Assembly: GCF_000003815.2 (NCBI RefSeq)
Contig: NC_049995.1
Span: 3,541,154-3,605,153, forward strand
Direction of reading: 5' to 3'
Source of the DNA: Branchiostoma floridae
Taxonomy: Eukaryota; Chordata; Leptocardii; Amphioxiformes; Branchiostomatidae
DNA length: 64,000 nt
The stretch's first letter is position 1. The number at the start of each line of letters is the position of its first letter. The translations under genes were made by a program, and so were the position numbers. This document shows positions 7,001 to 57,400 of the stretch, in pieces. The notes below the pieces were generated by a model that did no database searches, had not been told where the DNA came from, and saw nothing but the letters and a program-made list of their open reading frames with translations.

Positions 7001-10000
7001 CTGTGTATGAACATGTATGCGGTCACAACATCAGCTATACCTATCTCGGATTGTTGATAAGAATTGAAGAACTTTAAAAACGTTATGCCCAAAGTCCATT
7101 ACCGTATATTGTCAAGCTCTTGAACAGCAGTAAATAACTTTTATTTAGCATCTATGTGTAATGATTATTGTATCTTATAATGTTGTAAATTGGCAACAAA
7201 TGTGTATAAGTTGATTGATGTATTTTACCTGTAGTGTTTGTAAAAAGAAAACTTTGTAATTGTGAATCTTACAATTCAGCCTTTTGGCTGCCAGGAGTTT
7301 TTAATCAATAAACCAGTCTATAAGAATCATTTGAGAAGATGGCGCACGTGTAGGGCACTTACCAAAGTACGTAGAGGATGACATGACGGAAAGGCCGAAA
7401 AGCAGCTCGCACACTTTTGGTGCGAAGGCGAAAAGTCCCATATATGCCAAGGCGTCGATGGACACTGAAACAACAAGAAACATCATCATTCAGATTGAAT
7501 CATTCTTTAATGTATGTTAAAATTGCGCTATATTGTACAGATGAGCGTTGTGTAGCACAGGGCTAGCTATCTAGAGGTCATGGCAATGGTTCCTTTTGCT
7601 ATACGTTTTCTGTGAGGTTCAAAACAAATTCCTACATCCACCTAAAATGCTGTAATATTTGAAAAAACAAATAATGGATTGCATTGATCTAGATGATAAC
7701 AGATCCACGATTGGGTATTTTTAGCATTGCATATACAACCATAGAAATAGCTAAGAATAATATCTACAAATTTGTGTCGTTCTGATCAAATTTGAAAAGG
7801 AAATCTTATTATATATATTAATATATATATAAGGTCAAAGAAGTCTCTTACCTCCGAGGGTGAGTAGAGAAAAGGAGTAACTCTTGATAAGATCCATGAT
7901 AGATCTTAGAAGGTCCTTTAAGCCCTCTACGGTCCTTCCCTTGGAGCAGACGCCTCCTTCGTCTTCTTCGGCCTTGATCAAGTCAGCTTTTGTCGGCAGC
8001 TCCTCTTCTTCTTCTTCCAACTCCTCAGAACCTAAAAGCATATTCAAGTAAAATTTAGAAATGAGTACCACTAACGACCTGACAGTATTAGTTATTAGTT
8101 ATTGAGTGGCCCCACTACCCTCTCTTCGCAGCCTAGCCAGGGACTGAATTGCGAGGAGATTACGATAGGCGGGGCTAATTCGCATGGGTCTGAAGCTAGC
8201 TGCCATTCGGCGCCACTCAGGTAACCTCAATACGATATTAATTGTCCCAGGTCCGGCCACAGGACTGTGAGGTTTGAACCACTCACACCGGGAAGGACCC
8301 CCTCTTTTTTTGATAAATGGGGTGGGATCTTTAACAATTTAACGTCCTATACGAGGTAGGGCCCTAACCGAAGCTAACTCAATATTCATCTGAGTGAAGT
8401 GATGAAAATCGTGTTAAGTGCCTTTCCCAAGGGCACAACATGGTGAAAAATCAGCGGTTTCGAACCCGTGACTACTGTGTGGATGTAGCCCAGAGTCGTC
8501 AAATCATACTTCATTCACCCGAGAGCCATCCCTCCTTGTCTACAACATTGAACCAAGGCCAAAGCAAGCTTCCAATTCTTCAAGTATCTAACAACATCAC
8601 TAAGACAGAGAATCCGCCTAACACATTGTCATTTTGCAATATTCACACAACTGATCAGGGCGGTAACAGGTTGCTTCGCAACAATGTCAGTTCGCAACAG
8701 TCAGTTCGCAACAAGGCAAGTCTTTTCGCAACAAGGTGCAAATAGTTTCGCAACATTTGAATGCAATTAATCTTGATAGCCTAATATTGTTAGAAATCGT
8801 ATTCCTAACATAATTATACTCCTTCCGCATAAAAATCTTACCGGATGCGAAAGACAACCCCGGTGGCCGCGGGCAGAGGAACATGGTGGCCGCATGGACC
8901 TGACAGCCCGCTGATTTTCATACGCTGGGCGGTAGAGTTTCATACGCGTGCACAGGTACGAGTATGATTATGTTAGGAATATGATTTCTAACACTATTAG
9001 GCTATCAACTTTAAGATGAATAACATTCAAATGTTGCGAAACGACTCGTACTTTGTTGCGAAAAGACTTGCCTTGTTGCGAACTGACTGTTGCGAACTGA
9101 CTGTTGCGAACTGACATTGTTGCGAACTGACATTGTTGCGAACTGACATTGTTGCGAACTGACATTGTTGCGAACTGACATTGTTGCGAACTGACATTGT
9201 TGCGAAACAACCTGTAACCATCAGGACGCTCAACAAGGCAAACAAACACGCCAATTTGTAACCAACAATACATGTTTTTCGTGCGTAAGAAAGGTTGACC
9301 TCAGCATAACCAACAATTTATAATGCACAAAAATAAGTTATTGTGTGTAGTTAGACCAAATCGCACATACCTGGCAGCTTCTTCGGAAAAGCCAATAGTG
9401 GAATTGCGACGAGGATAGCCAGAACACCCAATACAGGGAACCCAAGCCACCAGTTTCCTACCCACCGTGGGTCCCAGGGCGTAAGCCCGGCCCTGAAATA
9501 AATGAAATGGAACCGAATGAACAAAAAAAAAATCTTTAACATCATAAGCACATGTTAACATTAAAGAAATGTGCGCTGCTTAGGCCTAGGCTAACGTTAC
9601 ATTTTAAACTGGGGTCCTGCCGGGCTGTTTGTTGAAACGAAAGTATAGACATGTTTACGTAAAATTATACACAAATAATGCCCACGACTATTCTCTTTAG
9701 ATCTTGTATAGTTTAGTGTCTTTTTTTGTACTTTTCGTTCTCGAAAGCTGGCCGGATGGGCCCTGGTCAGTGAGTGAGAGTCGGGGAGACGGGGAGAGTT
9801 AGTTAGTTAGGCCACGTTGATTTGATTATATGGATGACATCCGCGCTCGCACCAATTTTCGGCCATTTCCAAAAAAAAAAAAAAAGTTTTCGACCACACA
9901 ATAAATTGTGCAAAGCAGCTGTAAAATGAGCACAAATATTCCGTAGATTGAAAAAAAAGTATCAGAAAACAGATAACTAATGCCATATATAGAATGTCAA

Positions 10001-13500: not shown

Positions 13501-16022
13501 CTCTATTTGCCCGATCTGCTTGCAGAAATGATGTATGCTCAACATGATTCTGTTACTAGTATTTTTGCCGAGTTAAATGGGCTACACCTGAAACACGCTG
13601 CGCCTCAGGCTTTTTGTTTCATGTTAGTCACATCAATGACCCGAATGTTTTCCCTCGTCTACATTAGATAAACGCAATTTGGTAGCAAATAATTATGTCA
13701 CGGCAGGCTTCTAAGAGCTTTTCGTGCAAATTATTCAGCCTTTTACTAGGTAATTAAGAAATAAAACAAAGTCCAAAATAGAATTTTCTAAGATTACCTG
13801 TCCAGTAGTGTGGAGATGCAAACAGAAAGGCACCAATCCCGAACATTAAGACTCCAATGCCGATCAACTTGCCCTTAAAAAGTGAATGCGAAATGACATT
13901 AGGAACACAGACAGACATAGAAAGCTATGCTGCAGTACCATGAAAAGTCGCTAGGAAGTCCAGTAATACATATAGTTTTTTTTTTTTGCTGACAGCTTTG
14001 TACTCGCCAAATTCTATATAAAATATCCATTGACAACTTAAATAGTTATGCTATCCACCCTCAAACAAACTTGCAAACAAACAGATGAGCAACGCTGAAA
14101 TTCATTAACAAAGGACACGTAACCGTCTTTTTGATGGTAACTATACAAAGTAGTGAAATTTTCGTTGTTGCAATACACAGTTGTCCCCTAAAGTGTTGCT
14201 AAGCTTTCTATATATCCAAAAGACAAATCCTGAAAATGTCTAGATTTGGACACACAGTAAGTAATGTATCAGTCTAGCTGTGCTGAAGAACAGAACTCAG
14301 TTTTAACATTCCTCATGATCTCCTAATGGCTTGGTACAACTAACATGGCGGACAGTAAAAAATACATCACAATCACGTGACTACAGACAACCAATAGGGG
14401 CCAACCTTATGAGCCTTCCCGCCGATGTGCGTGATGATTGGCACCGTGATGAGCGCGAAGATCTGTGAGGAGCTGATAATGAAGCCACTCTGAGAACTCG
14501 ACATCTCGAATCGTTTCTCCAAGGTAGACACGATGCCGGGGATAAACGCAAAAGTTGTGCACTATGGAAAAGAGTTTGCAGTACTTATAGTTACCGAATG
14601 GTGGCGCTGTTGTACGTTTTCTGGTTTGATACTGGGAAAAGGAAATAATGATGAAGCCGCTCTGAGAGTTGGACATCTCAAACCGTTTCTCCAAGGTAGA
14701 CACGATGCCGGGGATGAACGCAAAAGTTGTGCACTACGGAAAACAAGACAATGCAGTACTTATAACCACCAAAAGGCGGCGCTATTGTACGTTTTAGTGG
14801 TTTGATGCTGGTAAAAGGGATTGATGATGAAGCCGCTCTGAGAGCTCGACATCTCGAATCGTTTCTCCAAGGTAGACACGATACCGGGAATGAACGCAAA
14901 AGTTGTGCACTACGGAAAACAAGAGAACGCAATATTTGTAACCACCAAAGGCACTGTTGTAAGTAACTTGTTTGATACAGGTGCTAGCTATAGGTAAAAG
15001 GGATTGATGATGAAGCCACTCTGAGAACTGGACATCTCGAACCGTTTCTCCAGGGTCGACACGATGCCGGGGATAAACGCAAAAGTTGTGCACTACGGAA
15101 AACAAGACAATGCAGTACTTATAACCACCAAAAGGCGGCGCTATTGTACGTTTTAGTGGTTTGATGCTGGTAAAAGGGATTGATGATGAAGCCGCTCTGA
15201 GAGCTCGACATCTCGAATCGTTTCTCCAAGGTAGACACGATGCCAGGGATAAACGCAAAAGTTGTGCACTACGGAAAACAAGAGAACGCAATATCTGTAG
15301 CCACCAAAAGGCGGCGCTGTTATGTTGTAGGTAACTAGTTTGATACAGGTGCTAGCTATAGGTAAAAGGGATCGATGATGAAGCCGCTCTGGGAACTCGA
15401 CATCTCGAATCGTTTCTCCAGGGTAGACACGATGCCGGGGATAAACGCAAAAGTTGTGCACTACGGAAAACAAGAGATTGTGCTACTTATGTAGTTATAG
15501 TACCAAATGGTGTCGTAGTTTTTACTCGTTTGATACTGGGAAAAGGGGATTGATGATGAAGCCACTCTGAGAATTCGACATCTCGAATCGTTTCTCCGGG
15601 GTCGACACGATACCGGGGATGAAAGCAAAAGTTGTGCACTACGGAAAACAAGTTCTTATTTTTACCAAAAGGCGGCGCTGTTGTAAGTTTCACTTGTTTG
15701 ATACTGTGGAAAGGGATTGTAAGATTGTGAGGTGTCTTTTGCAGTATTTTCAAGGATTTTTGACTATCACAATAAATAGACTACTCACATCCACATAGGC
15801 AGCGATACTCATGAAAAACAGCAGCCATCTTGAAGTGTTGAAGAACTGTAGGAAGTCAGGCGTGAAGCCGAACCAGCCGAACCGAAGACTTCCCTGCTTC
15901 TCCTTCAGAACTTGGTCCGTAGTCTGGAAGGGCTCGTATCGAGGCGTGGTGTCGAGCAGCGGCCGGGCTGTCTGATTTAGCGCCGCCTGGCGAAGATCTG
16001 GTAAACTGCTGAACATTGACAT
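3769..16022 (-). CDS. Gene B: OATP/SLCO solute carrier, complete, 14 coding exons, 695 aa
   Basis: Predicted plasma-membrane organic anion transporter of about twelve membrane segments. Coding exons in transcript order: 15789-16022, 14406-14561, 13798-13873, 11614-11737, 11246-11385, 10380-10482, 9371-9492, 7852-8031, 7363-7464, 6727-6922, 5804-5927, 5090-5286, 4595-4659, 3769-4037. All have consensus or near-consensus splice sites and the phases sum to 2088 nt, so the frame is intact. The length fits the family (roughly 640-720 aa). Seen: N terminus MSMFSSLPDLRQ, FGWFGFTPDFL before TM1, signature DPRWVGNWW (A of the usual GAWW replaced by N), an acidic run of glutamates in the intracellular loop, a Kazal-like domain with C-x3-C-x-C-x8-C-x10-C-x3-C, and the last membrane segment. 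Intron 1 holds an exon-derived tandem array. Start choice: the ATG follows an acceptor (tttttccag), and the same MSMFSSLPDLRQ start recurs in gene C. Substrate unknown. Confidence 0.9.
5639..5690 (-). repeat. Degenerate duplicate of the 3' end of the gene B Kazal exon
   Basis: On + the segment reads actcaccatggta...gtatac...aaaagcggtacag, echoing 5799-5833 (actcaccatggtggtata...caaagcggtacag). It is therefore a partial copy of the exon end plus its donor. It lies about 150 bp further into the intron and lacks the cysteine codons. Confidence 0.5.
5699..5803 (-). other. Intron block conserved between genes B and C
   Basis: These 105 bp match 22054-22157 in gene C at roughly 90% by eye, with the same start, donor and spacing. 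The neighbouring introns are not alignable. The similarity continues into the 3' half of the Kazal exon. A recent gene-conversion tract is the simplest reading. Confidence 0.75.
5804..5927 (-). CDS. Gene B Kazal-like extracellular loop exon
   Basis: It encodes MACSSSCACADSLHDPVCGE followed by a QSPCHAGC block. This is the Kazal-type module that defines extracellular loop 5 of OATPs and is needed for surface expression in studied members. The exon ends in phase 0 at ATG|GTGAGT. The next exon opens with the IYSDCSC pair of cysteines that completes the loop. The 3' half and the following 105 bp of intron closely match gene C. Confidence 0.92.
5973..6140 (+). repeat. E-box-rich dispersed repeat, copy 1
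   Basis: Four CACGTG hexamers lie at 5973, 5981, 5997 and 6014. They are followed by sequence (gtgattgg, attgatccagaag, tggtcgtt, aaatttgat, gtgttgaaagaaag-like) that is also present in the same orientation at 59089-59270 in gene E. The shared block lies in an intron in both cases, so it is a dispersed element and not coding. Confidence 0.6.
6344..6542. mobile_element. MITE with 10-bp target-site duplication
   Basis: The element spans 6354-6532 (179 bp) and is flanked on both sides by gtctaaggcc. The termini are inverted: ggGTGTGCCTAAATACCACAAAC-type sequence at the left, its complement at the right. The arms contain repeated accacaaacg motifs and would fold into one long hairpin. No coding capacity, so it is non-autonomous. 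It lies in an intron of gene B. The superfamily is not assignable. Confidence 0.8.
7140..7325 (+). repeat. Retroelement-like 3' end in a gene B intron
   Basis: A low-complexity stretch with acaattcagccttttggctg and then aatcaataaacc has the look of a non-LTR retrotransposon 3' end. Identification is by style only; no reverse transcriptase is present. Confidence 0.3.
8100..8485 (-). repeat. SINE-like repeat, copy 1
   Basis: On the minus strand the element has a tRNA B-box-like ggttcgaaacc and, just downstream, cttgggaaaggcacttaac. The second motif recurs at 37950-37975 (-) and, in modified form, at 48765-48790 (+), so it is a dispersed family core. A good B box suggests derivation from a tRNA. 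It lies in a gene B intron. Confidence 0.6.
8654..9227. mobile_element. Fold-back element with terminal minisatellites
   Basis: Inverted termini (ggtaacaggttg... at 8662 and ...caacctgtaacc ending 9219) enclose arrays of a 15-16-bp unit, TTGCGAACTGACATTG. There are only a few units at the left and about ten at 9070-9205. The flanks atcagggc and atcaggac are an imperfect 8-bp target-site duplication. Inner arms (gttagaaatc/gatttctaac) are also inverted. The core, 8830-8950, is GC-rich and noncoding. It lies in a gene B intron. Confidence 0.75.
9371..9492 (-). CDS. Gene B exon with the OATP signature
   Basis: It encodes AGLTPWDPRWVGNWWLGFPV and then a membrane segment ending FPKKLPG. The family consensus at the extracellular edge of TM6 is D-x-R-W-I/V-G-A-W-W-x-G-F/L. 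Here, and in gene C, asparagine replaces the alanine. In genes D and E the signature and the preceding segment sit on a single 219-bp exon, whereas here an intron separates them. Confidence 0.9.
10530..10628. repeat. GATA microsatellite
   Basis: A run of tagatagatagata units decays into gatggatgga and related variants. It lies in the intron between gene B exons 10380-10482 and 11246-11385. Confidence 0.9.
11806..12196. mobile_element. MITE with TA target-site duplication
   Basis: Inverted termini of about 33 bp, with the shared core tttctcacgcggcggccatg. The left starts after TA at 11806-11807 and the right ends before TA at 12195-12196. A TA duplication fits the Tc1/mariner type. The 387-bp interior is AT-rich without a transposase. 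It lies in a gene B intron. Confidence 0.75.
12424..12980. mobile_element. MITE with TTAA target-site duplication
   Basis: Termini AGGCGCCCAGAGCAGTTTTT (12428) and the reverse complement (ending 12976) are each bounded by TTAA. TTAA duplications are typical of piggyBac-type elements. The 549-bp interior has no convincing transposase; the longest minus-strand frame (about 100 codons) resembles nothing I know. It lies in a gene B intron. Confidence 0.8.
14406..14561 (-). CDS. Gene B coding exon 2, the only complete copy of a locally amplified exon
   Basis: This phase 0-0 exon of 52 codons encodes CTTFAFIPGIVSTLEKRFEM and then a segment ending HIGGKAHK, covering TM1 to the loop before TM3 in OATP topology. 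Gene C has the same exon at 27038-27196 (53 codons). Six partial copies of its 5' part lie upstream in the transcript (14649-15638). This is the last acceptor the spliceosome would meet and the only one joined to a donor in frame. Confidence 0.88.
14477..15720 (-). repeat. Tandem array of exon-derived units (six truncated copies of exon 2)
   Basis: A unit of 172-192 bp repeats from exon 2 outward. The shared gaagcc marker occurs at 14481, 14653, 14829, 15012, 15188, 15380 and 15558. Each extra unit carries an acceptor (ccgtag), then about 85 nt matching the 5' part of exon 2, then intron-like sequence with an AAAGGCGGCGC-type block. None has the 3' half or the donor. Units at 14829 and 15188 are almost identical, and units at 15012 and 15380 share a private stretch (aggtgctagctataggtaaa). 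That implies two-unit duplications on top of single-unit ones. Confidence 0.9.
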
Positions 16023-26300: not shown

Positions 26301-27876
26301 GATGGCACATCGTGTTGGTCTGCTGGGAAGAGGTCACGTTTGTTGCGTAACTGCCGGGTGCTTCGTAACGTCCTGGTAAGAAAAACACAAAATCATATCC
26401 ATAGGGTCACATGATAAGTTAAGACTCAGTGGGTCAGTATTGCTGAAGAAGACCAAATGATTGGTTGGTCTGACCAAAATGATTGGTTGGTCTACATTTC
26501 GATAAGTGTTGGTAATTTGCAAATTGCAAAACCTTAATATTTTTTCTGTTCTTTTTCTTGAACAAAAACTTTGATAACTTTTTACAACGAAAAGTCTGCA
26601 TAGAACACATTTGTTATATCTAACTCAGTGTAGATACTGCCACTGAATTACCTGTTAAGAAGTGCGGCGAGGCGAACAGGAAACAACCAACCCCATACAG
26701 CAGCGTTACCGCTCCAAGCCACTTCCCCTGGAAAAAAAGGGAATGAAATGGAATGATTTACTCATGATACCGCATTTAAAACAATCAGGATGGCCAGATA
26801 CAGGTAATTGTGCAACATGTTGAATAGGACTACTGAGACCTTGTTGACACCAAGACTTGCGGTGTGCCTGTTTTAGTTGGCGTGACAGGAAGTGGAATTC
26901 AGAGGTGGTAGAATAAGTCGTTCGTTGGACATGAAATTCCAGACTAAAGGAATTATCGAACAAGACATCAGTTCAACAGGACGTATGACAAACTAAATAT
27001 TTGTCGAAGAATCATACCATGTTCTAACAACTCCTACCTTATGCGTTTTGCCGGCGATGTGTGTTACGAATGGCATCGTGACAAGGGCAAAGATCTGGTA
27101 GGAACTGACGATGAAGCCACTCTTGGAGCTGGACATCTCAAACCGTCTCTCCAATGTAGATATGATCCCAGGAATGAATCCGTAAGTTGACGTGCACTGA
27201 CGGAAAATGAGGAATAAGACGCAACGATTACTTTAATACATCGATAAAGGTTAGACATCTAGGTATGTATTAAGATACGCCAAAAACCAGTAACTCAAGC
27301 AACTTGATATGATTTTGAAACGGTCAGACGTTTTAGAGAGCATTCACTATCTTTTGTCAGTGACACTAAATATTCTAAGGTTCAGTTGTATGACAAAGTA
27401 ATAAAAAGTCAGGCATGCAGTTAAAAAGACAAATAGGGTAAATATGTCATTTTTTTTATATCTGTACATTTACATTATTCTATAACTATCGGATGACCAT
27501 AGCCTAGCTTATAGCCATATTTGCTAGATTTGTGAGTATACACCCGCCATTTTGAATCTGTCGCCATTTTGAATCTGCCGCCATTTTGATTCTGAGCCAC
27601 CTTGCGGGGGACGCCTAAAGTTACAATGACGAGTCTCCTTACCTCAAGGGCACCAGTAAGACCCACGAAAAAGAGCAGCCATCTTGAAGTGTTGAAGACT
27701 TGAAGGAAATCAGGTTTAAAGCCGAACCAGCCGAATCGAAAGTTTTTCTCCTTCTCCTTCTGGATTTGCGCCGTTGTGTTGAAAGGCTCGTACCGAGGGG
27801 TTGTGTCGAGCAGGGGGCGGCCATTTTGGTGATGGGCCAGCTGGCGAAGGTCGGGTAAACTGCTGAACATGGACAT
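20397..27876 (-). CDS. Gene C: OATP/SLCO solute carrier, complete, 14 coding exons, 702 aa
   Basis: Closest paralogue of gene B, with every intron at the same place. Coding exons in transcript order: 27643-27876, 27038-27196, 26652-26727, 26246-26372, 25196-25335, 24793-24895, 24182-24303, 23553-23741, 23029-23130, 22537-22726, 22158-22281, 21433-21641, 21067-21131, 20397-20665. Phases sum to 2109 nt and the frame is intact. Seen: start MSMFSSLPDLRQ, FGWFGFKPDFL, signature DPRWIGNWW, an intracellular loop with mixed acidic and basic residues (GSEELHDDEAQLPTK), a Kazal-like domain with the standard spacing, and a last segment with DNACAQWQTSC. Like gene B, it is predicted to carry amphipathic anions across the plasma membrane; substrate unknown. 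An upstream untranslated exon is likely at 29205. A dinucleotide-repeat intron lies near 23.3 kb. Confidence 0.9.
22158..22281 (-). CDS. Gene C Kazal-like extracellular loop exon
   Basis: It encodes MTCADSCACADNLYNPVCGE followed by QSPCHAGCTALNHTTM. Cysteine spacing C-x3-C-x-C-x8-C-x10-C-x3-C is the same as in genes B, D and E. The exon has 124 bp and ends phase 0, as in gene B. Its 3' half is nearly identical to gene B at the nucleotide level while the 5' half has diverged. Confidence 0.92.
23287..23385. repeat. CA microsatellite grading into CATA
   Basis: Alternating cacaca for about 40 bp is followed by catacatacata units. It lies in the intron between gene C exons 23029-23130 and 23553-23741. 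Confidence 0.9.
24182..24303 (-). CDS. Gene C exon with the OATP signature
   Basis: It encodes AGLTPWDPRWIGNWWFGFPV and a hydrophobic stretch ending FPRKLPG. It has the same length, phase and GNWW variant as gene B, so the A-to-N change predates the B/C duplication or was homogenised between them. Confidence 0.9.
25625..25763 (+). repeat. Retroelement-like 3' end with (AAAC)n tail
   Basis: The segment agaggaggagggcacagc...ttccctcctcctgcac forms a short hairpin. It is followed by gtgcaaactgaataaac and an aaac run. This resembles the tail at 2400-2498. It lies in a gene C intron. Confidence 0.45.
27288..27383 (+). repeat. Single arm of the 1068-1343 fold-back family
   Basis: The sequence cagtaactcaagcaacttga...aacggtcagacgttt...gtcagtgaca matches one arm of the element next to gene A. 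The second arm is missing. It lies in intron 1 of gene C. Confidence 0.65.
27643..27876 (-). CDS. Gene C first coding exon
   Basis: The ATG follows directly on an acceptor (ttttccatag), so the leader is on another exon. It encodes MSMFSSLPDLRQ, LLDTTPRYEPF, FGWFGFKPDFL and the start of TM1. It ends GCCCTTGAG|GTAAGG in phase 0. The length equals that of the gene B exon. Confidence 0.9.
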
Positions 27877-32215: not shown

Positions 32216-32596
32216 CGCCACTCTAGCCTCCTTCACCGGCCTCTCTGGGAAGCTTGGCGATTTTTTTTTTCGGGGAGTAGGTCGATTCGCGATTTTTAAC
32301 CGGGAATATCATGCCGGTAAAGGAATATATGCCGGGAAAGGAATATGCACCGGAAAGCTTGTACGGGCTAGGCGAAATNNNNNNNNNNNNNNNNNNNNNN
32401 NNNNNNNNNNNNNNNNNNNNNNNNNNNNNNNNNNNNNNNNNNNNNNNNNNNNNNNNNNNNNNNNNNNNNNNNNNNNNNTGCATATTCCTTTCCCGGCATA
32501 ATATTCCCGGTTAAAAATCGCGAATCGACCTACCCCCCCGGAAAAAAAAGATCGCCAAGCTTCCCAGAGAGGCCGGTGAAGGAGGCTACGCCACTC
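32216..32596. mobile_element. hAT-like MITE with perfect 8-bp target-site duplication (contains gap)
   Basis: Perfect direct repeats cgccactc at 32216-32223 and 32589-32596 bracket an element (32224-32588) with inverted ends TAGCCTCCTTCACCGGCCTC. Each arm is about 125 bp. A 100-N gap replaces the middle. An 8-bp duplication with TAG-type termini fits the hAT superfamily. The hairpin structure probably caused the assembly gap. Confidence 0.85.
32379..32478. other. Assembly gap (100 N)
   Basis: A nominal-size gap inside the inverted-repeat element above; true length unknown. Confidence 0.99.
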
Positions 32597-48905: not shown

Positions 48906-49325
48906 AACAACTCACTGTCCCTATAAATATATAGCTACGGCATCAAAAGGACCATAGGACTACCAGTACCTATTTAAGCTATACTGATTAAGCCATGATT
49001 GCTCCGGAGTTTGTTTAATGATATGCGAGCCAATACTTCCAAAGCAGATAAAAAGGATAATATTCTTTGTTGTAATGACTTCATTGTAAACATAACAAAA
49101 TATACTTCTAAAGCATGTTTTGTGCTAATTCATCGAAATTCTTCATCAAATATGGTACTGTGATCAAAAATGATATAAAAGTTTTACATGGTGTTATGAC
49201 TGCTTTAAAACAGAATTATAATTATATCTACTGTGTGGGTGATGTCTGTGATAAAGCAAGATAACAACCCTTATAATATCATTGAATTATGTATCTTAGC
49301 AGGTATTTTCGGTAACAGGTATTCT

Positions 49326-50960
49326 ACGTTTGTTGACCTATGCTTTACATTTTGTAGTTACATCATCTAAAATCTGGACGTACCAATTGTCTTCGCGAAA
49401 TTAGTTTTGTAACATCTTTTGTGAGTAGCGTTGACCCTACGTTTGTTGACCTATGTTTTACCTCTTTGTAGTTACATCACCTAAAATCTGGATGTACCAA
49501 ATATATTCGCGAAATTAGTTTTGTAACCAATCTTTTGTGAGTAGCGTTGACCCTACTTTTGTTGACCTATGTTTTACCTCTTTGTAGTTACATCACCTAA
49601 AATCTGGATGTACCAAATATATTCGCGAAATTAGTTTTGTAACAAATCTTTTGTGAGTAGTGCTGACCCTACGTTTCTTGACCTACGCTTTACCCCTCCG
49701 TAGTTATATCACCTTTAGAAAATCTGCATTGATGTACTAAACATCTTCGCGAAAGTAGTTTTGTAACCAACCTTTTGTGAGTAGTCTTGTCCATACGTTT
49801 GTTCACCTATGTTTTACCACAGTCTGTGTAGTTACATCATCTAAAATCTGGATGTACCAAATATCTTCGCAAAAGTTAGTTTTACAACCAATCTATGGAT
49901 GGCTTTCTAATGGTGAATAGTGTTGACCCAACGTTGTTGACCTATGCTTTACCTCTGTGTAGTTACATCAGCTGAAATATGGATGTAACAAATATCTTCG
50001 CAAAAGTATTTTTCAACCAAAGTTGGGTTTCTTGTAGTGACCATACGTTTGTTGACCTATGCTTTACCCCTCCGTAGTTATTACATCACATAAAATCTGC
50101 ATGGATGTACCAAATATCTTGGCGAAAGTAGTTTTGTAACCAATCGTTTGTGAGTAGTCTTGTCCATACGTTTGTTGACCCATACTTTACCCCTCCGTAG
50201 TTATTACATCACCTAAAATCTGCATGGATGTACCAAATATCTTCGCTAAAGTAGTTTTGTAACCAGACTATTGTGAGTCGTCTTGACTCTACGTTTGTTG
50301 ACTTATGCTTTACCCCTCCGTAGTTGTATCACCTAAAATCTGCATGGATGTAACAAATATCTTCGCAGAAGTATTTTTCAACCAAAGTTGGCTTTCTTGT
50401 TGTGACCATACGTTTGTTGACCTATGCTTTACACCTCCGTAGTTATATCACCTAAACTCTGTATGTACCAAATATCTTCTCAAAAGTAGCTTTGTAACCA
50501 ATCTAGTGTGAGTCTTCTTGTCCATACGTTTGTTCACCTATGGTTTACCTCTGTGTAGTTATATCCCCTAAACTCTGGATGTACCAAATATCTTCGCAAA
50601 AATATTTTTGTAACCAGTCTATTGTGAGAAGTCTTGTCAATACGATTATTGACCTATGTTTTACCTCTGTGTAGTTACATCACCTAAAATCTGCATGGAT
50701 GTACCAAATATCTTCGCAAAAGTATTTTTCAACCAAAGTTGGGTTTCTGTAGTGAGCATACGTTTGTTGACCTATGCTTTACCCCTCCGTAGTTACATCA
50801 CCTAAAATATGCATGGATGTACCAAATATCTTCGCGAAAGTAGTTTTGTAACTTAACTTTTGTGAGTAGTGTTGACCCTACGTTTGTTGACCTGTGTTTC
50901 ACCTCTGTGTTGTTACATCACCTATAGAATGTGGATGTACCCATGCGCACGTGTAGTGTA
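49326..50960 (+). repeat. Minisatellite, about 14 units of roughly 119 bp
   Basis: Units start near 49326, 49438, 49551, 49670, 49793, 49931, 50045, 50166, 50289, 50407, 50524, 50640, 50758 and 50877. Each has acgtttgttgacctatg, gtagttacatcacctaaaat, a gatgtaccaaatatcttcgc phrase and gttttgtaaccaatc-like ends. Units differ by small indels; a subset carries an extra tgcatg and another ends in aaccaaagttggg. No frame stays open through them. Confidence 0.9.
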
Positions 50961-52927: not shown

Positions 52928-54456
52928 TCAGACAAAACGCATTTTGTCGCTATTTTCTTCATTTTCTTCACTTACGGTTTGCTGCCCTTCGGCAACCTCA
53001 TCATCAGCAGACTCATCTATTTCGTCTGAGTTCACTTCATCATGTTGGTTTTCATCCGGAATGGTGGAGTGATCCGGGTGGACTTCGGCCTCCACAACTT
53101 CCGTCGGTTTGACAGCATTTTGCGGACTTCCTGTATCGGCTTTGCTGGACCCTGGATCCGATACTGCTGCTGGAGCCTGCATCTCTTGGTTGTCGTCATC
53201 TTGAGGATCTCCGTCGACTGCCCGCGTGACTTGGTCATCTGCAAGCTGCAGCATTTCCTCTACAGCATTTGCTTCGTCGTTAGCTTCATTAGCTGGTTGC
53301 TCTTCATGATCATCACTTGTTGAAGTTTCTTGAAAGTTAGTAACCGTTTGGGAGCTTTCGGGTTCCACGTGCTCTTCAAGGCTGGAGGTATTTCTTGACA
53401 TGTTGTCAGGCGTGTCGTCATTTACAGCACTCGTCTCGTCGCTGGTTCCATTACCATTGGCCAATTGCTTTTCGTGACCTGTTTGGATCTCTTGAGGGTG
53501 GCTATCTTTCTGGGAGGTTTCATGTTCCGCATTCTCTTTCATACTGGCGGTATTTGTTGAAATGTTGTTTGGGTTGCCGTCTTGGACTTTTGGAGATGCG
53601 TTTTCGTTTGCGGGTAGTTGTTCATCAGTCTTCGGAGCATCCGAATTTGAGGTTTCAACTTCTGCACGCTCTTCCTTGATAGTAGCATTTGTTGACTGGT
53701 TCTTTGGAGTTGCGTTTTCGTTTTGAGATAGTTTTTCGTCAGTCACCAGAGCATCAGAACGGGACGTTTCACGTTCTGCAATATCTTCCATGCTGAAGGT
53801 ATTTGGTGACGGGTTGTTTGGATTGTCGTCTTGAACCACAGTGACTGGAGTTTCGCTTTGTGGTGGTTGATACTCCTTGATGTCGGATGTATCTGCAGAA
53901 AGGTTGTTTGGATTGCCGTCTTTGACTACTTGGGTTGCATTTTCGTTTTGAGGTACCGGTGGCTGTTCATCGGTCTTCAGGGCGTCCGTATATGCTGGTG
54001 GGTCGACATTCGGTTGGGGGGTGTTCGGATTTTCGCCACAGGCTACTGGGGTTACAACAGTTACTTCAGATTGCTGAGACACTTTGGTGGGTTGTTCCGA
54101 GTCTCTCGCAACGTTGTTGTCTGAAGCTTTATGCGAGGTGCTTTGGATCACACCAACCATCCTCAGCGATGACATTGATGCTGCGAGTGACCCCATGGAT
54201 GTTGCGATGTCTCTGGTCGTGAGTCCACCGACTTTGCTCTTCGGATCGCTCCTCTCGCGTCGCCGAAACATCCAGGCAGCGAATAGCGTCATGACGATCT
54301 GCACGGCCTGGATGCCCTGCAATAGCCCGAAGAAGCTGGTTCGTAACTTGCCGAGGTCGTAGAGAAGACAGGCGCCCGTGGAGCCACAGATGGAGGACCA
54401 GAGCGCGCACGTGCTGTCGATCATAGCTCCGAAGTAGATCCCTCCAGGGATAAAGC
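52928..54456 (-). CDS. Gene E terminal exon with about 420-residue acidic tail
   Basis: It opens GFIPGGIYFGAMIDSTC, then CGSTGACLLYDLGK, the final membrane segment and a RRRERSD stop-transfer cluster. SMGSLAASMSSL follows, as in gene D. The rest is low-complexity and rich in Asp, Glu, Asn, Ser, Thr and Gln, with loose repeats such as DGNPNN, SDAPKTDEQLP and NENA. No domain is recognised. It ends SDKMRFV. Usual OATP tails are a few dozen residues. Synonymous and length variation between the loose repeats argues for an old, selected coding sequence and not readthrough. Confidence 0.88.
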
Positions 54457-57400
54457 CTGCGCGGAAGGTAGAAACATATGATTATATGAATATATGACAA
54501 ATAAACCAATAAAACAAAAACAATGATTCATGATCTGGGACAGACAACAACTAAACGCAACATAGTTAACTTATCTTTCTCCTCTACAAACGTCTCAACA
54601 ACTGTCTGCTGTCTTAACTGATCGCTACAAAAGGGCAACTTTACTTTTCACTGATAGGAGACAAACACGTTGTCGAATCGTCTGTAGACAAGAAAAATCA
54701 TGGTTTGTATCCATGAAAAGTATGTAAAATTGATGTCAACCCGATAAAATAATTGATTGACATTTGGTTGTAAAAAGTAACAAGTTTATATCACACATTC
54801 TGTTTTACTAAATATCTCATGTATACTCATAGCGCGTATGTTGCTTTACATGAACTTACCCAAGAGTCTCATCATTAACACAGCCACTCCCATCCCGAAT
54901 GATTTGGTCTCAGGTGTAAGGGACCTATTGGGAGAAACAGCAAAAAGAATGTTGTTACAATGCTAAAACGTTGTCTTTTACAACAAACATGGTGGCGATC
55001 CCTAATTACGGTCACGAAGACACAAAAATCAATTTACATTTTCACAAGTGAAAACAAGCTAAAGTGTATCTTTTACTAGTAGCCTTGACTGAAATTAAAA
55101 TAATTAAAATCATTACACGATCGATTGAAACATAATTCAGATACCACCGTATATTAACCATGCATGCGCGGACATTGCAGAAATACCTCTGGCCTGAATG
55201 CGTCGCCAAAAACGTACCTTAAAGTCGCAAGTAGCAAGGGAACCAATGCAGAGCTGGCGAGAAGAACGTAAGCGGCGAAAGCAGGAACGAAGCCAGTCAT
55301 TAGCTTTTTGCAGTTCTGCGGGCACGGGACTCCAATTGCGAAGCTGGGCATCTGTATTTGTGGCATTCTTTTAGGAGGGGGACCTGGTGGTTTTCCGGGA
55401 CCCTTGTCACCTGACGCTGGGTTGCTGTCTTCCGTTGGATTGCCACCTTGCGTTGGGTTGCCACCTTGCGTTGGATTACCATTTTGCGTTGGATTGCCAC
55501 CTTGCGTTGGATTGCCATTTTGCGTTGGGTTGCCACCTTGCGTTGGGTTGCCACCTTGCGTTGGGTTGCCACCTTGCGTTGGGTTGCCACCTTGCGTTGG
55601 GTTGCCACCTTGCGTTGGATTGCCATTTTGCGTTGGGTTGCCACCTTGCGTTGGGTTGCCACCTTGCGTTGGGTTGCCACTTTGCGTTGGGTTGCCACCT
55701 TGCGTTGGGTTACCACCTTGCGTTGGGTTGCCACCTTGCGTTGGATTGCCAGCTTGCGTTGGATTGCCATTTGGCGTTGGGTTGCCACCTTGCGTTGGGT
55801 TGCCACCTTGAGTTGGGTTGCCACTTTGCGTTGGGTTGCCACCTTGCGTTGGGTTGCCACCTTGCGTTGGGTTGCCACCTTGCGTTGGGTTGCTATCTGA
55901 CGTTGGAGTGTCACCTGGTCTTGGGTTGCCACCCTCTGTTGGGTTGCCACCTTGCGTTGGGTTGCCACCTTGCGTTGGGTTGTCACCTTGCGTTAGGTTG
56001 CCACCTGCTGTTGGGTTGCCACCTTGTGCTGGGTTACGACCTTGCGTTGGGTTGCCACCTTGCGTTGGGTTGCCACCTTGCGTTGGGTTGCCACCTTGCG
56101 CTGGGTTGCCACCTTGCGTCGGGTTGCCACCTTCCGTTGGGTTGCCACCTTGTGTTGGGTTGCCACCTTGCGTTGGGTTTCCACTTTGCGTTGGGTTTCC
56201 ACTTTGCGTTGTGTTTCCACCTTGCGTTGGATTGCCACCTTGCGTTGGATTGCCACCTTGCGTTGGGTTGCCACTTTGCTTTGGGTTCCCACCTTGCGTT
56301 GGATTGCCACCTGGTCTTGGGTTGCCACCTGGTATCTTTGCCCCATCCGGTTTTCCTGGTCTTCCAGCCTTTTCAGCAATCTTCATCAGAACTTCCAATG
56401 GCAGACTTGCAAGGCAGCTGCAACTCGAGAAGTTCTGTAGACAATGATGGGCAAAATACGTCTTTGAGAACATTTGTCTACAAATAAAAGAATAAAATGC
56501 ACCAAGCAATCTTGTGGCTATAAACGTTTAAGAAATTTACGGATGTTTCAAGGACTGTACTAAAAGAGCAAAAATTTATTAGAGTGCGGCATAAAGCGCT
56601 GTGTGTAAAGAAATTGTAATACAATTGTAGCAAACAAATGTAAGCCCTACATGTTTTAACAATTTATGCCTCTGTGGCCGATCGGTAATGCAACCCCACA
56701 GCATGGCCATCTGGATCCAATGCCATGGATCCATTGGCCTGAGTTCGATCCCAGGGTCGGCTGAACTCGGACATATTGTAAGGGACCGCATTCGTCTGTT
56801 TGAGGGAACGTAAAATGGGGTCCCGTGTTGGAGGAGGTGCCTCATTACTCATAAAAATACCTATTTGGCTACAACTATACACTATTTAAAGTCTAATACT
56901 TATCCAAGAAGAAGCTGCTCACCGATAGACGGATCCCCATCGGGTGCACGAAGGTCTGTTTGTCGGTGCAGCCTGCGTGGCAGCCCGAGAAGTAGGTAAC
57001 ACCGTCTATCCCGCACACCGGGCTGTACTTCTCCAGGCCGCAGCTACAGTCTGAGTTGCAGGGGGACAGCAGGGCGATGTCTCCGGCCGTGATGTTGGGG
57101 ACGTTCGGCATGTAGGGGCTGTGGTAACGACAGAAGGAATGGGGATGTGAATGGAATGCCAGAGACGGCGGAGGGTACCGACTTCGAAGCATGTCTGACT
57201 AGCTACCAGATCCACATGCCATAAACTCCAAGGTTATTTTTCTAAAGTTTGTCAAAAACATTACCTCTTCTAAAAGGAACAATGCATGGTCGTAACTTTT
57301 TCTCGCCTCGACATGTGAACATTGCCCATGGTGCATGATAATGGGTACCGTATGATAATGGATAGCACTGCGTTAGAAGGTTTGAATTCGTACGACGTGT

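Follow-up and report, generated by a model that had tools for sequence, protein, structure and literature searches.

The exon 1-exon 2 region of an OATP/SLCO gene

We analyzed a 64,000-nucleotide stretch of the Branchiostoma floridae genome (C17:3541154-3605153, called the window here and numbered from its first base), in which a tandem array of partial exon copies lies between exons 1 and 2 of a gene on the minus strand. The gene that hosts this array, studied in one assembly, is an OATP/SLCO transporter. When eight segments of the gene were searched against Pfam, exon 2 and three more segments matched PF03137 above the curated cut-off, exon 3 matched it under the cut-off (E 9e-5), one segment had a Kazal match only, and exon 1 and one further segment had no Pfam match. 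A PDB search with exons 1 and 2 returned SLCO2A1 (E 2.3e-4). The end of exon 1 and the limits of exon 2 are predicted from reading frame and OATP homology. The donor of exon 1 is the top scorer among 100 GT sites of the region, using a splice-donor matrix, and the start of this exon, MSMFSSLPDLRQ, is also found in a paralogue at 27876. The parts of the region are as follows, in transcript order.

15789-16022, minus strand: putative exon 1, 78 codons, open frame with a Met start, phase 0 end, donor GAT/GTGAGT
15552-15717, minus strand: unit U1, 79-nt intron part, acceptor 15638 and 87-nt exon half, two amino-acid changes relative to exon 2
15374-15551, minus strand: unit U2, 91-nt intron part, acceptor 15460 and exon half, 29-residue peptide identical to exon 2
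15182-15373, minus strand: unit U3, 105-nt intron part, acceptor 15268 and exon half, peptide identical to exon 2
15006-15181, minus strand: unit U4, 89-nt intron part, acceptor 15092 and exon half, peptide identical to exon 2
14823-15005, minus strand: unit U5, 96-nt intron part, acceptor 14909 and exon half, peptide identical to exon 2
14647-14822, minus strand: unit U6, 89-nt intron part (the same as that of U4), acceptor 14733 and exon half, one amino-acid change
14562-14646, minus strand: intron part directly upstream of the complete exon 2
14406-14561, minus strand: putative complete exon 2, 52 codons, donor AAG/GTTGGC, PF03137 E 4.8e-11
13798-13873, minus strand: probable exon 3 (GKLIGIGVLMFGIGAFLFASPHYWTG), ends approximate and boundaries predicted

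A sequence-only reading of this DNA had placed seven splice acceptors at 15638, 15460, 15268, 15092, 14909, 14733 and 14561 (each position being that of the first base of the exon as read on the minus strand), 172-192 bp apart. All seven are present, each with a T-rich tract and AG, and the measured spacings are 178, 192, 176, 183, 176 and 172 bp. The sequence TTTTCCGTAG precedes six of the acceptors, and TTTTCCATAG precedes the one at 14561. Each extra unit combines 79-105 nt of the 3' end of the intron with the acceptor and the initial 87 nt of exon 2, this 87-bp exon part being common to all seven copies; the intron part of U1 extends to approximately 15717, and the complete exon 2 sits at the downstream edge of the array. 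Tandem Repeats Finder (TRF) describes 14474-15652 both as 6.6 copies of a 176-bp period (score 1384) and as 3.3 copies of a 359-bp period (score 1580), so the repeat does not arise by chance. The two-unit duplications proposed in the sequence-only reading are borne out by identical runs of 166 nt (lag 359) and 50 nt (lag 368). Together, the two TRF periods and the longer run indicate growth by one and by two units at a time, in agreement with that reading's view of an array seeded from an exon boundary. As the sequence shows, the founding duplication fused a position 87 bp into exon 2 with one approximately 80 bp upstream of the exon 2 acceptor, and the units then multiplied singly and in pairs.

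Minisatellites that lie across exon-intron boundaries are called mirages, a name taken from the Adh3 case (PMC3087553). In the OATP array, the repeat unit spans an exon-intron boundary as placed by homology and frame, splice acceptors are kept in 7/7 copies with a complete exon alongside, and the same genome also has an array fitting the published mirage of BflGb6. We therefore consider the array very probably to be an amphioxus mirage, that is, a minisatellite at an exon boundary, lying in intron 1 of an OATP/SLCO gene. The sequence-only reading had known of no description for this family; amphioxus mirages share the anatomy of the array (PMC3087553, PMC3902484).

Codon-level constraint in the half-exons

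A codon-by-codon comparison of the seven 87-nt exon parts reveals 17 variable columns, of which 14 are third codon positions (binomial p 4.7e-5), and not a single indel. The 29-residue exon 2 peptide is kept exactly in U2, U3, U4 and U5, with one change in U6 and two in U1. Nei-Gojobori means over the 21 pairs are 0.311 for synonymous divergence (dS; pairwise values 0.20-0.49) and 0.0127 for nonsynonymous divergence (dN), for a dN/dS ratio of 0.041. Differences between the intron parts amount to 0-0.28, and 20 of the 21 pairs contain gaps. When U1 and exon 2 are left out, 12 of 14 variable columns fall at position 3 (p 8e-5), and among seven singleton changes in the units, one affects the amino-acid sequence (P 0.002 if neutral), both counts having been made by eye. 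Under drift, the unit branches would be expected to carry approximately 56 amino-acid changes, against approximately 3.5 seen relative to exon 2, a rough estimate that uses pairwise values and not a tree. Neutral decay of the unit sequence, which the sequence-only reading had named as an outcome that would speak against its proposal, was tested in part by these comparisons, and the sequence does not look neutral. The six non-exonic half-exons thus appear to be constrained at the protein level. We see no cause for the third-position pattern except translation, either at present or in the ancestry of the copies.

The codon scan was applied to 17 TRF rows with a period of at least 70 bp and at least 2.4 copies, taken from the window and from loci L002-L026 (L001 was excluded since it repeats the window). 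The OATP array gave p 1.9e-5 at period 176 (0/60 shuffles) and 0.0014 at period 359 (3/60). Eight of the 15 other rows, including the satellite at 49325, had no scorable window, and the remaining seven gave p values of 0.26, 0.22, 0.13, 0.12, 0.051, 0.028 and 0.009. The two lowest of these by shuffles (0/60 and 2/60) represent the same array, L021:5826-6926, which has a weak third-position bias. This array has periods of 84, 168 and 252 bp and may be coding.

Reading frames and splice signals of the units

The best GT site scores -1.7 or -1.8 in each of U1-U5 and 0.8 in U6, and the donors of exons 1 and 2 score 4.1 and 0.3, respectively. The exon frame closes 34-49 codons past the acceptor in U1-U5; in U2 and U4 it is open for 34 codons only, with a stop five codons past the junction. 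In U6, it is open for 108 codons and enters exon 2 out of frame. Given the lack of good donors and the closing frames, ordinary exon use of the units is unlikely. In-frame cassette use by way of weak donors was considered and is unsupported by the donor scores and frame closures, and the donor and kept phase that every copy of a tandem alternative exon array would carry are not found here. An alternative frame had been said to stay open through several units; it is indeed open from stop to stop at 14797-15351 and at 15156-15482, but it differs from the exon frame. Exon definition is an established principle of splicing. By this principle, splicing most likely skips the six extra acceptors, because no unit appears to have a good donor downstream while exon 2 has one. 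We found no evidence for the idea that the units act as acceptor decoys, which would leave the codon-position-specific conservation unexplained.

Recombination among units and simulations of exchange

In a four-gamete test, 26 of the 36 pairs of nine parsimony-informative columns show all four combinations. Units U4 and U6 (window 14647-15181) have intron parts with 0/89 differences, whereas their exon halves differ at 8/87 positions. These results indicate that the units are mosaics or that sites have mutated repeatedly. The U4/U6 contrast resembles the outcome of an exchange confined to the exon halves. A genome search with the array DNA, of a kind that may overlook frequent words, returned elsewhere only a 75% and a 71% relative, which makes donation from paralogues unlikely. 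A paralogous source of the unit variation was rejected, no near-identical copy having been found in that search.

We simulated populations of arrays in which amino-acid changes were lethal only when they fell in the last unit, with N counting chromosomes and cN denoting the exchange rate scaled by N. With no or rare exchange (cN 0-0.5), the dN/dS ratio was 0.91-1.01. Exchange within chromosomes gave ratios of 0.35-0.80 at cN of at least 10, with dS of 0.006-0.06 at cN of at least 50, and unequal crossing-over gave 0.37-0.77 between homologues and 0.68-0.69 between sisters. Conversion from the complete exon only (the master-copy model) reached a ratio of 0.044, but with a dS of 0.034. Any-to-any conversion between chromosomes gave 0.18-0.20 at cN 50-100 with 200 chromosomes and 0.069 at cN 200. 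At cN 300, the ratio was 0.065 with theta 0.04 and 0.106 with theta 0.08; at theta 0.04, it fell to 0.053 at cN 400 and to 0.013 at cN 1000. At theta 0.08 and cN 1000, the ratio was 0.025 and dS was 0.27, and a fraction of 0.79 of 28 samples combined a dS of at least 0.2 with a ratio of 0.06 or less. Master-copy and neighbour-only conversion, intra-chromosome exchange and pure unequal crossing-over do not fit. Of the models run, the only one that approaches the observed values is frequent conversion between any units of homologous chromosomes when selection acts solely on the complete exon.

For amphioxus, an effective population size (Ne) of 1.7 million, a synonymous diversity of 0.0397 and a heterozygosity of 3.2-4.2% are given in PMC12862219, for a population that its authors describe as somewhat laboratory-inbred, such that wild diversity may be higher. 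An Ne of 1.7 million corresponds to 3.4 million chromosomes, and a cN of 400-1000 then amounts to approximately 1-3 exchanges per array per 10,000 generations. Such a rate is modest for a minisatellite.

A globin mirage in the same genome

A search of the genome for the globin exon returned nine matches at nine loci, one of which (L035, C18:7180855) has an array of intron-end and exon-start units reaching the globin exon.

L035:954-1601: globin mirage, 158-bp unit, 4.2 copies

Its three extra units are spaced 154, 158 and 158 bp apart. The array fits haplotype 2 of the BflGb6 mirage as described in PMC3087553, the match being by description only. By itself, this match makes B. floridae the very probable source of the genome; a search for the GFP family, as an independent marker of an amphioxus, returned 0 matches, an outcome that the search tool itself rates as uninformative. 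Before a 1-nt deletion, third positions make up 8 of 11 variable columns (p 0.009); with the later columns included, the count is 10 of 15 (p 0.0085). The three nearest copies, two of which are identical, have 4/4 variable columns at third positions in 84 nt (p 0.012). The deletion is a frameshift in the most distal unit, which also has two amino-acid changes before it. The globin mirage is thus biased in the same direction as the OATP array, but less strongly, and the unit most distant from its exon shows decay.

Allelic exchange as a proposed explanation of the constraint

On the basis of the dN/dS values, the recombination pattern and the simulations, we propose that the array is a mirage whose constraint is explained by allelic exchange. 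The units and the real exon 2 would often be swapped by gene conversion between homologous chromosomes, so that any unit might become the coding exon; those with amino-acid changes would then be removed by selection, and the remaining synonymous differences would represent diversity pooled from a very large population. We assign this explanation as a whole a probability of roughly 0.55. A broader idea, which we put forward tentatively, is that mirages are a live reservoir of coding sequence whose units rotate through the working exon by frequent inter-allele exchange in the germ line and perhaps the soma, with the result that intronic DNA would be codon-selected and mirage-adjacent exons would be synonymously hyperdiverse.

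Several results weigh against the exchange explanation. The constraint is read from a single 87-bp segment and thus from few sites. Because the other exchange models miss the observed values, one regime only fits: pure unequal crossing-over never brought the ratio below 0.37, conversion between neighbouring units of different chromosomes reached only 0.26 at cN 200, and the first runs, with 100 chromosomes and mutation scaled high relative to exchange, gave ratios of at least 0.43. At the published diversity of 0.0397, the simulated dS in the low-ratio regime is 0.16-0.17, about half of the observed 0.31, so a theta of approximately 0.08 is needed to approach the observed value. The globin mirage has a weak bias (8/11), two units with identical exon parts and a distal frameshift. 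Finally, the donor of exon 2 is itself weak when scored with the same matrix as the units, which weakens the exon-definition step.

The simplest competing account is that the units are ordinary neutral minisatellite copies of exon 2, decaying since birth, with a third-position pattern that arose by chance. Their non-exonic position agrees with this, as does the report that other mirages leave splicing undisturbed (PMC3087553), but neither the codon-position p of 4.7e-5 nor the excess of expected over observed amino-acid changes (56 against 3.5) would be anticipated, and 0/7 scorable control rows reach such a p (best, 0.009). Neutral copying is strongly disfavoured and we give it very little credence. 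We are equally reluctant to see the array as an assembly artefact of collapsed or stacked haplotypes. The authors of PMC3087553 did find haplotype 1 of the BflGb6 mirage apparently misassembled in the genome draft, and the copy number of the OATP array may be inexact; against an artefact, the novel junction between mid-exon and intron is present in 6/6 units, the units are individually different, the PGBD5 duplications of lancelet were upheld by re-sequencing (PMC3902484), and a six-unit BflGb6 haplotype 1 was reconstructed from trace reads (PMC3087553).

A less improbable alternative, though still an unlikely one, is that the array was built very recently from several highly diverged functional exon 2 alleles or from an admixed lineage, such that decay had not had time to set in and the synonymous differences reflect old allelic variation. 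Recent growth is evident from the 166-nt identical block, and amphioxus is extremely heterozygous (PMC12862219). Yet the dS of 0.20-0.49 and the intron differences of up to 0.28 are many times the diversity of 0.0397, the master-copy conversion model yields a dS of 0.034 only, and no near-identical paralogue is found as a source, the other matches being the 75% and 71% relatives (with the stated limit of that search). Somewhat more doubtful is the view that the half-exons are really used, with a splicing route or somatic DNA excision placing single units in the transcript under direct selection. The strong codon constraint in U2-U5, a report, cited in PMC3087553, that the Adh3 mirage is somatically unstable, and the weakness of exon 2's own donor (0.3) would suit such use. 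The low donor scores of the units, which reach 0.8 in U6 alone, the stop codons of U2 and U4 just past the junction, and the RT-PCR (reverse transcription polymerase chain reaction) on BflGb6, which suggested regular splicing (PMC3087553), speak against it.

If exchange with the working exon does occur, such arrays would let inter-allelic conversion be measured, they would offer a route for one exon to turn synonymously hyperdiverse, and they would serve as a warning that a dN/dS below 1 is no proof that a copy is translated. Our simulations predict that the start of exon 2 is hyperdiverse between individuals. If exchange is not the explanation, there must be some use of the copies that has so far escaped notice.

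Other features of the window

Probably three OATP-like genes lie in tandem on the minus strand at 3772-62650, and at least 113 OATP exon matches occur in the genome, many of them on C17 and C3. Exon 2 of a neighbouring OATP paralogue (27038-27196) is one codon longer near its start. Upstream of it, TRF lists no exon-edge array; the one repeat listed there (27544-27594) has a 17-bp unit in 3 copies. At 9073-9206, apparently intronic to the array-bearing OATP gene, lies a 16-bp x 8.6 array (97% matches); smaller relatives of 14-22 bp adjoin it at 8675-8755 and 9032-9082. At 53589-53822, a 114-bp x 2.1 repeat lies inside a 517-codon open frame that opens with an OATP C-terminal segment of the third gene; the repeat is thus probably coding, with 38 residues per unit.

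Other repeats include an 18-bp x 50.7 array at 55418-56330, in a 457-codon open frame (GGNPTQ-type repeats) with long open stretches in other frames too, and a 116-bp x 13.5 satellite at 49325-50941 that has no spanning open frame and whose units are too indel-rich for the codon scan. A run of N approximately 34 codons wide at about 32378-32480 adjoins GGAATATCATGCCGGGAAA-type repeats. Rfam at gathering thresholds and ARAGORN found nothing over the window.

Comparison with known systems

Arrays of tandem mutually exclusive or cassette exons also consist of repeated acceptors and coding segments under codon constraint. The OATP array, in contrast, has neither good donors nor a common open phase and thus is not such an array.

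Among mirages, the closest counterpart is that of BflGb6. Its units of 150-160 bp join the 3' end of an intron to the 5' part of exon 2, and there are three or six copies in two haplotypes (PMC3087553). Like the OATP array, it is a tandem series of intron-end and exon-2-start units, many with splice signals, beside a complete exon. RT-PCR suggested that regular splicing is undisturbed, and concerted evolution was reported within BflGb6 mirage clusters (PMC3087553). The two differ in that BflGb6 is a globin gene and in the stronger coding constraint of the OATP array. Coding constraint of BflGb6 goes unreported in the main text of PMC3087553, where "synonymous", "third position" and "gene conversion" have 0 occurrences each, and a literature search that covered neither the original Adh3 paper nor supplements found no codon-level constraint of mirages in print.

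The mirages in Adh3 of B. floridae and B. lanceolatum, to which PMC3087553 refers, likewise are minisatellites across an exon-intron boundary that leave splicing undisturbed and are unstable; unlike those of the OATP array, their units are 10-72 bp. Tandem duplications are also described in lancelet PGBD5, with troponin C cited as well (PMC3902484). The PGBD5 units are shorter than those of the OATP array, and the 108-bp repeat is a triplication only.

The roles described for mirages in the publications consulted are those of unstable repeats that spare splicing and of possible seeds of new introns (PMC3087553, PMC3902484). Intron gain by way of mirages is a hypothesis of PMC3087553 that comes near the suggestion, made in the sequence-only reading, of a source of new exons. 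Against this background, a dN/dS of approximately 0.04 in copies outside an exon is unexpected. If the tentative reservoir idea is true, amphioxus mirages would be a class of non-exonic DNA selected by rotation.

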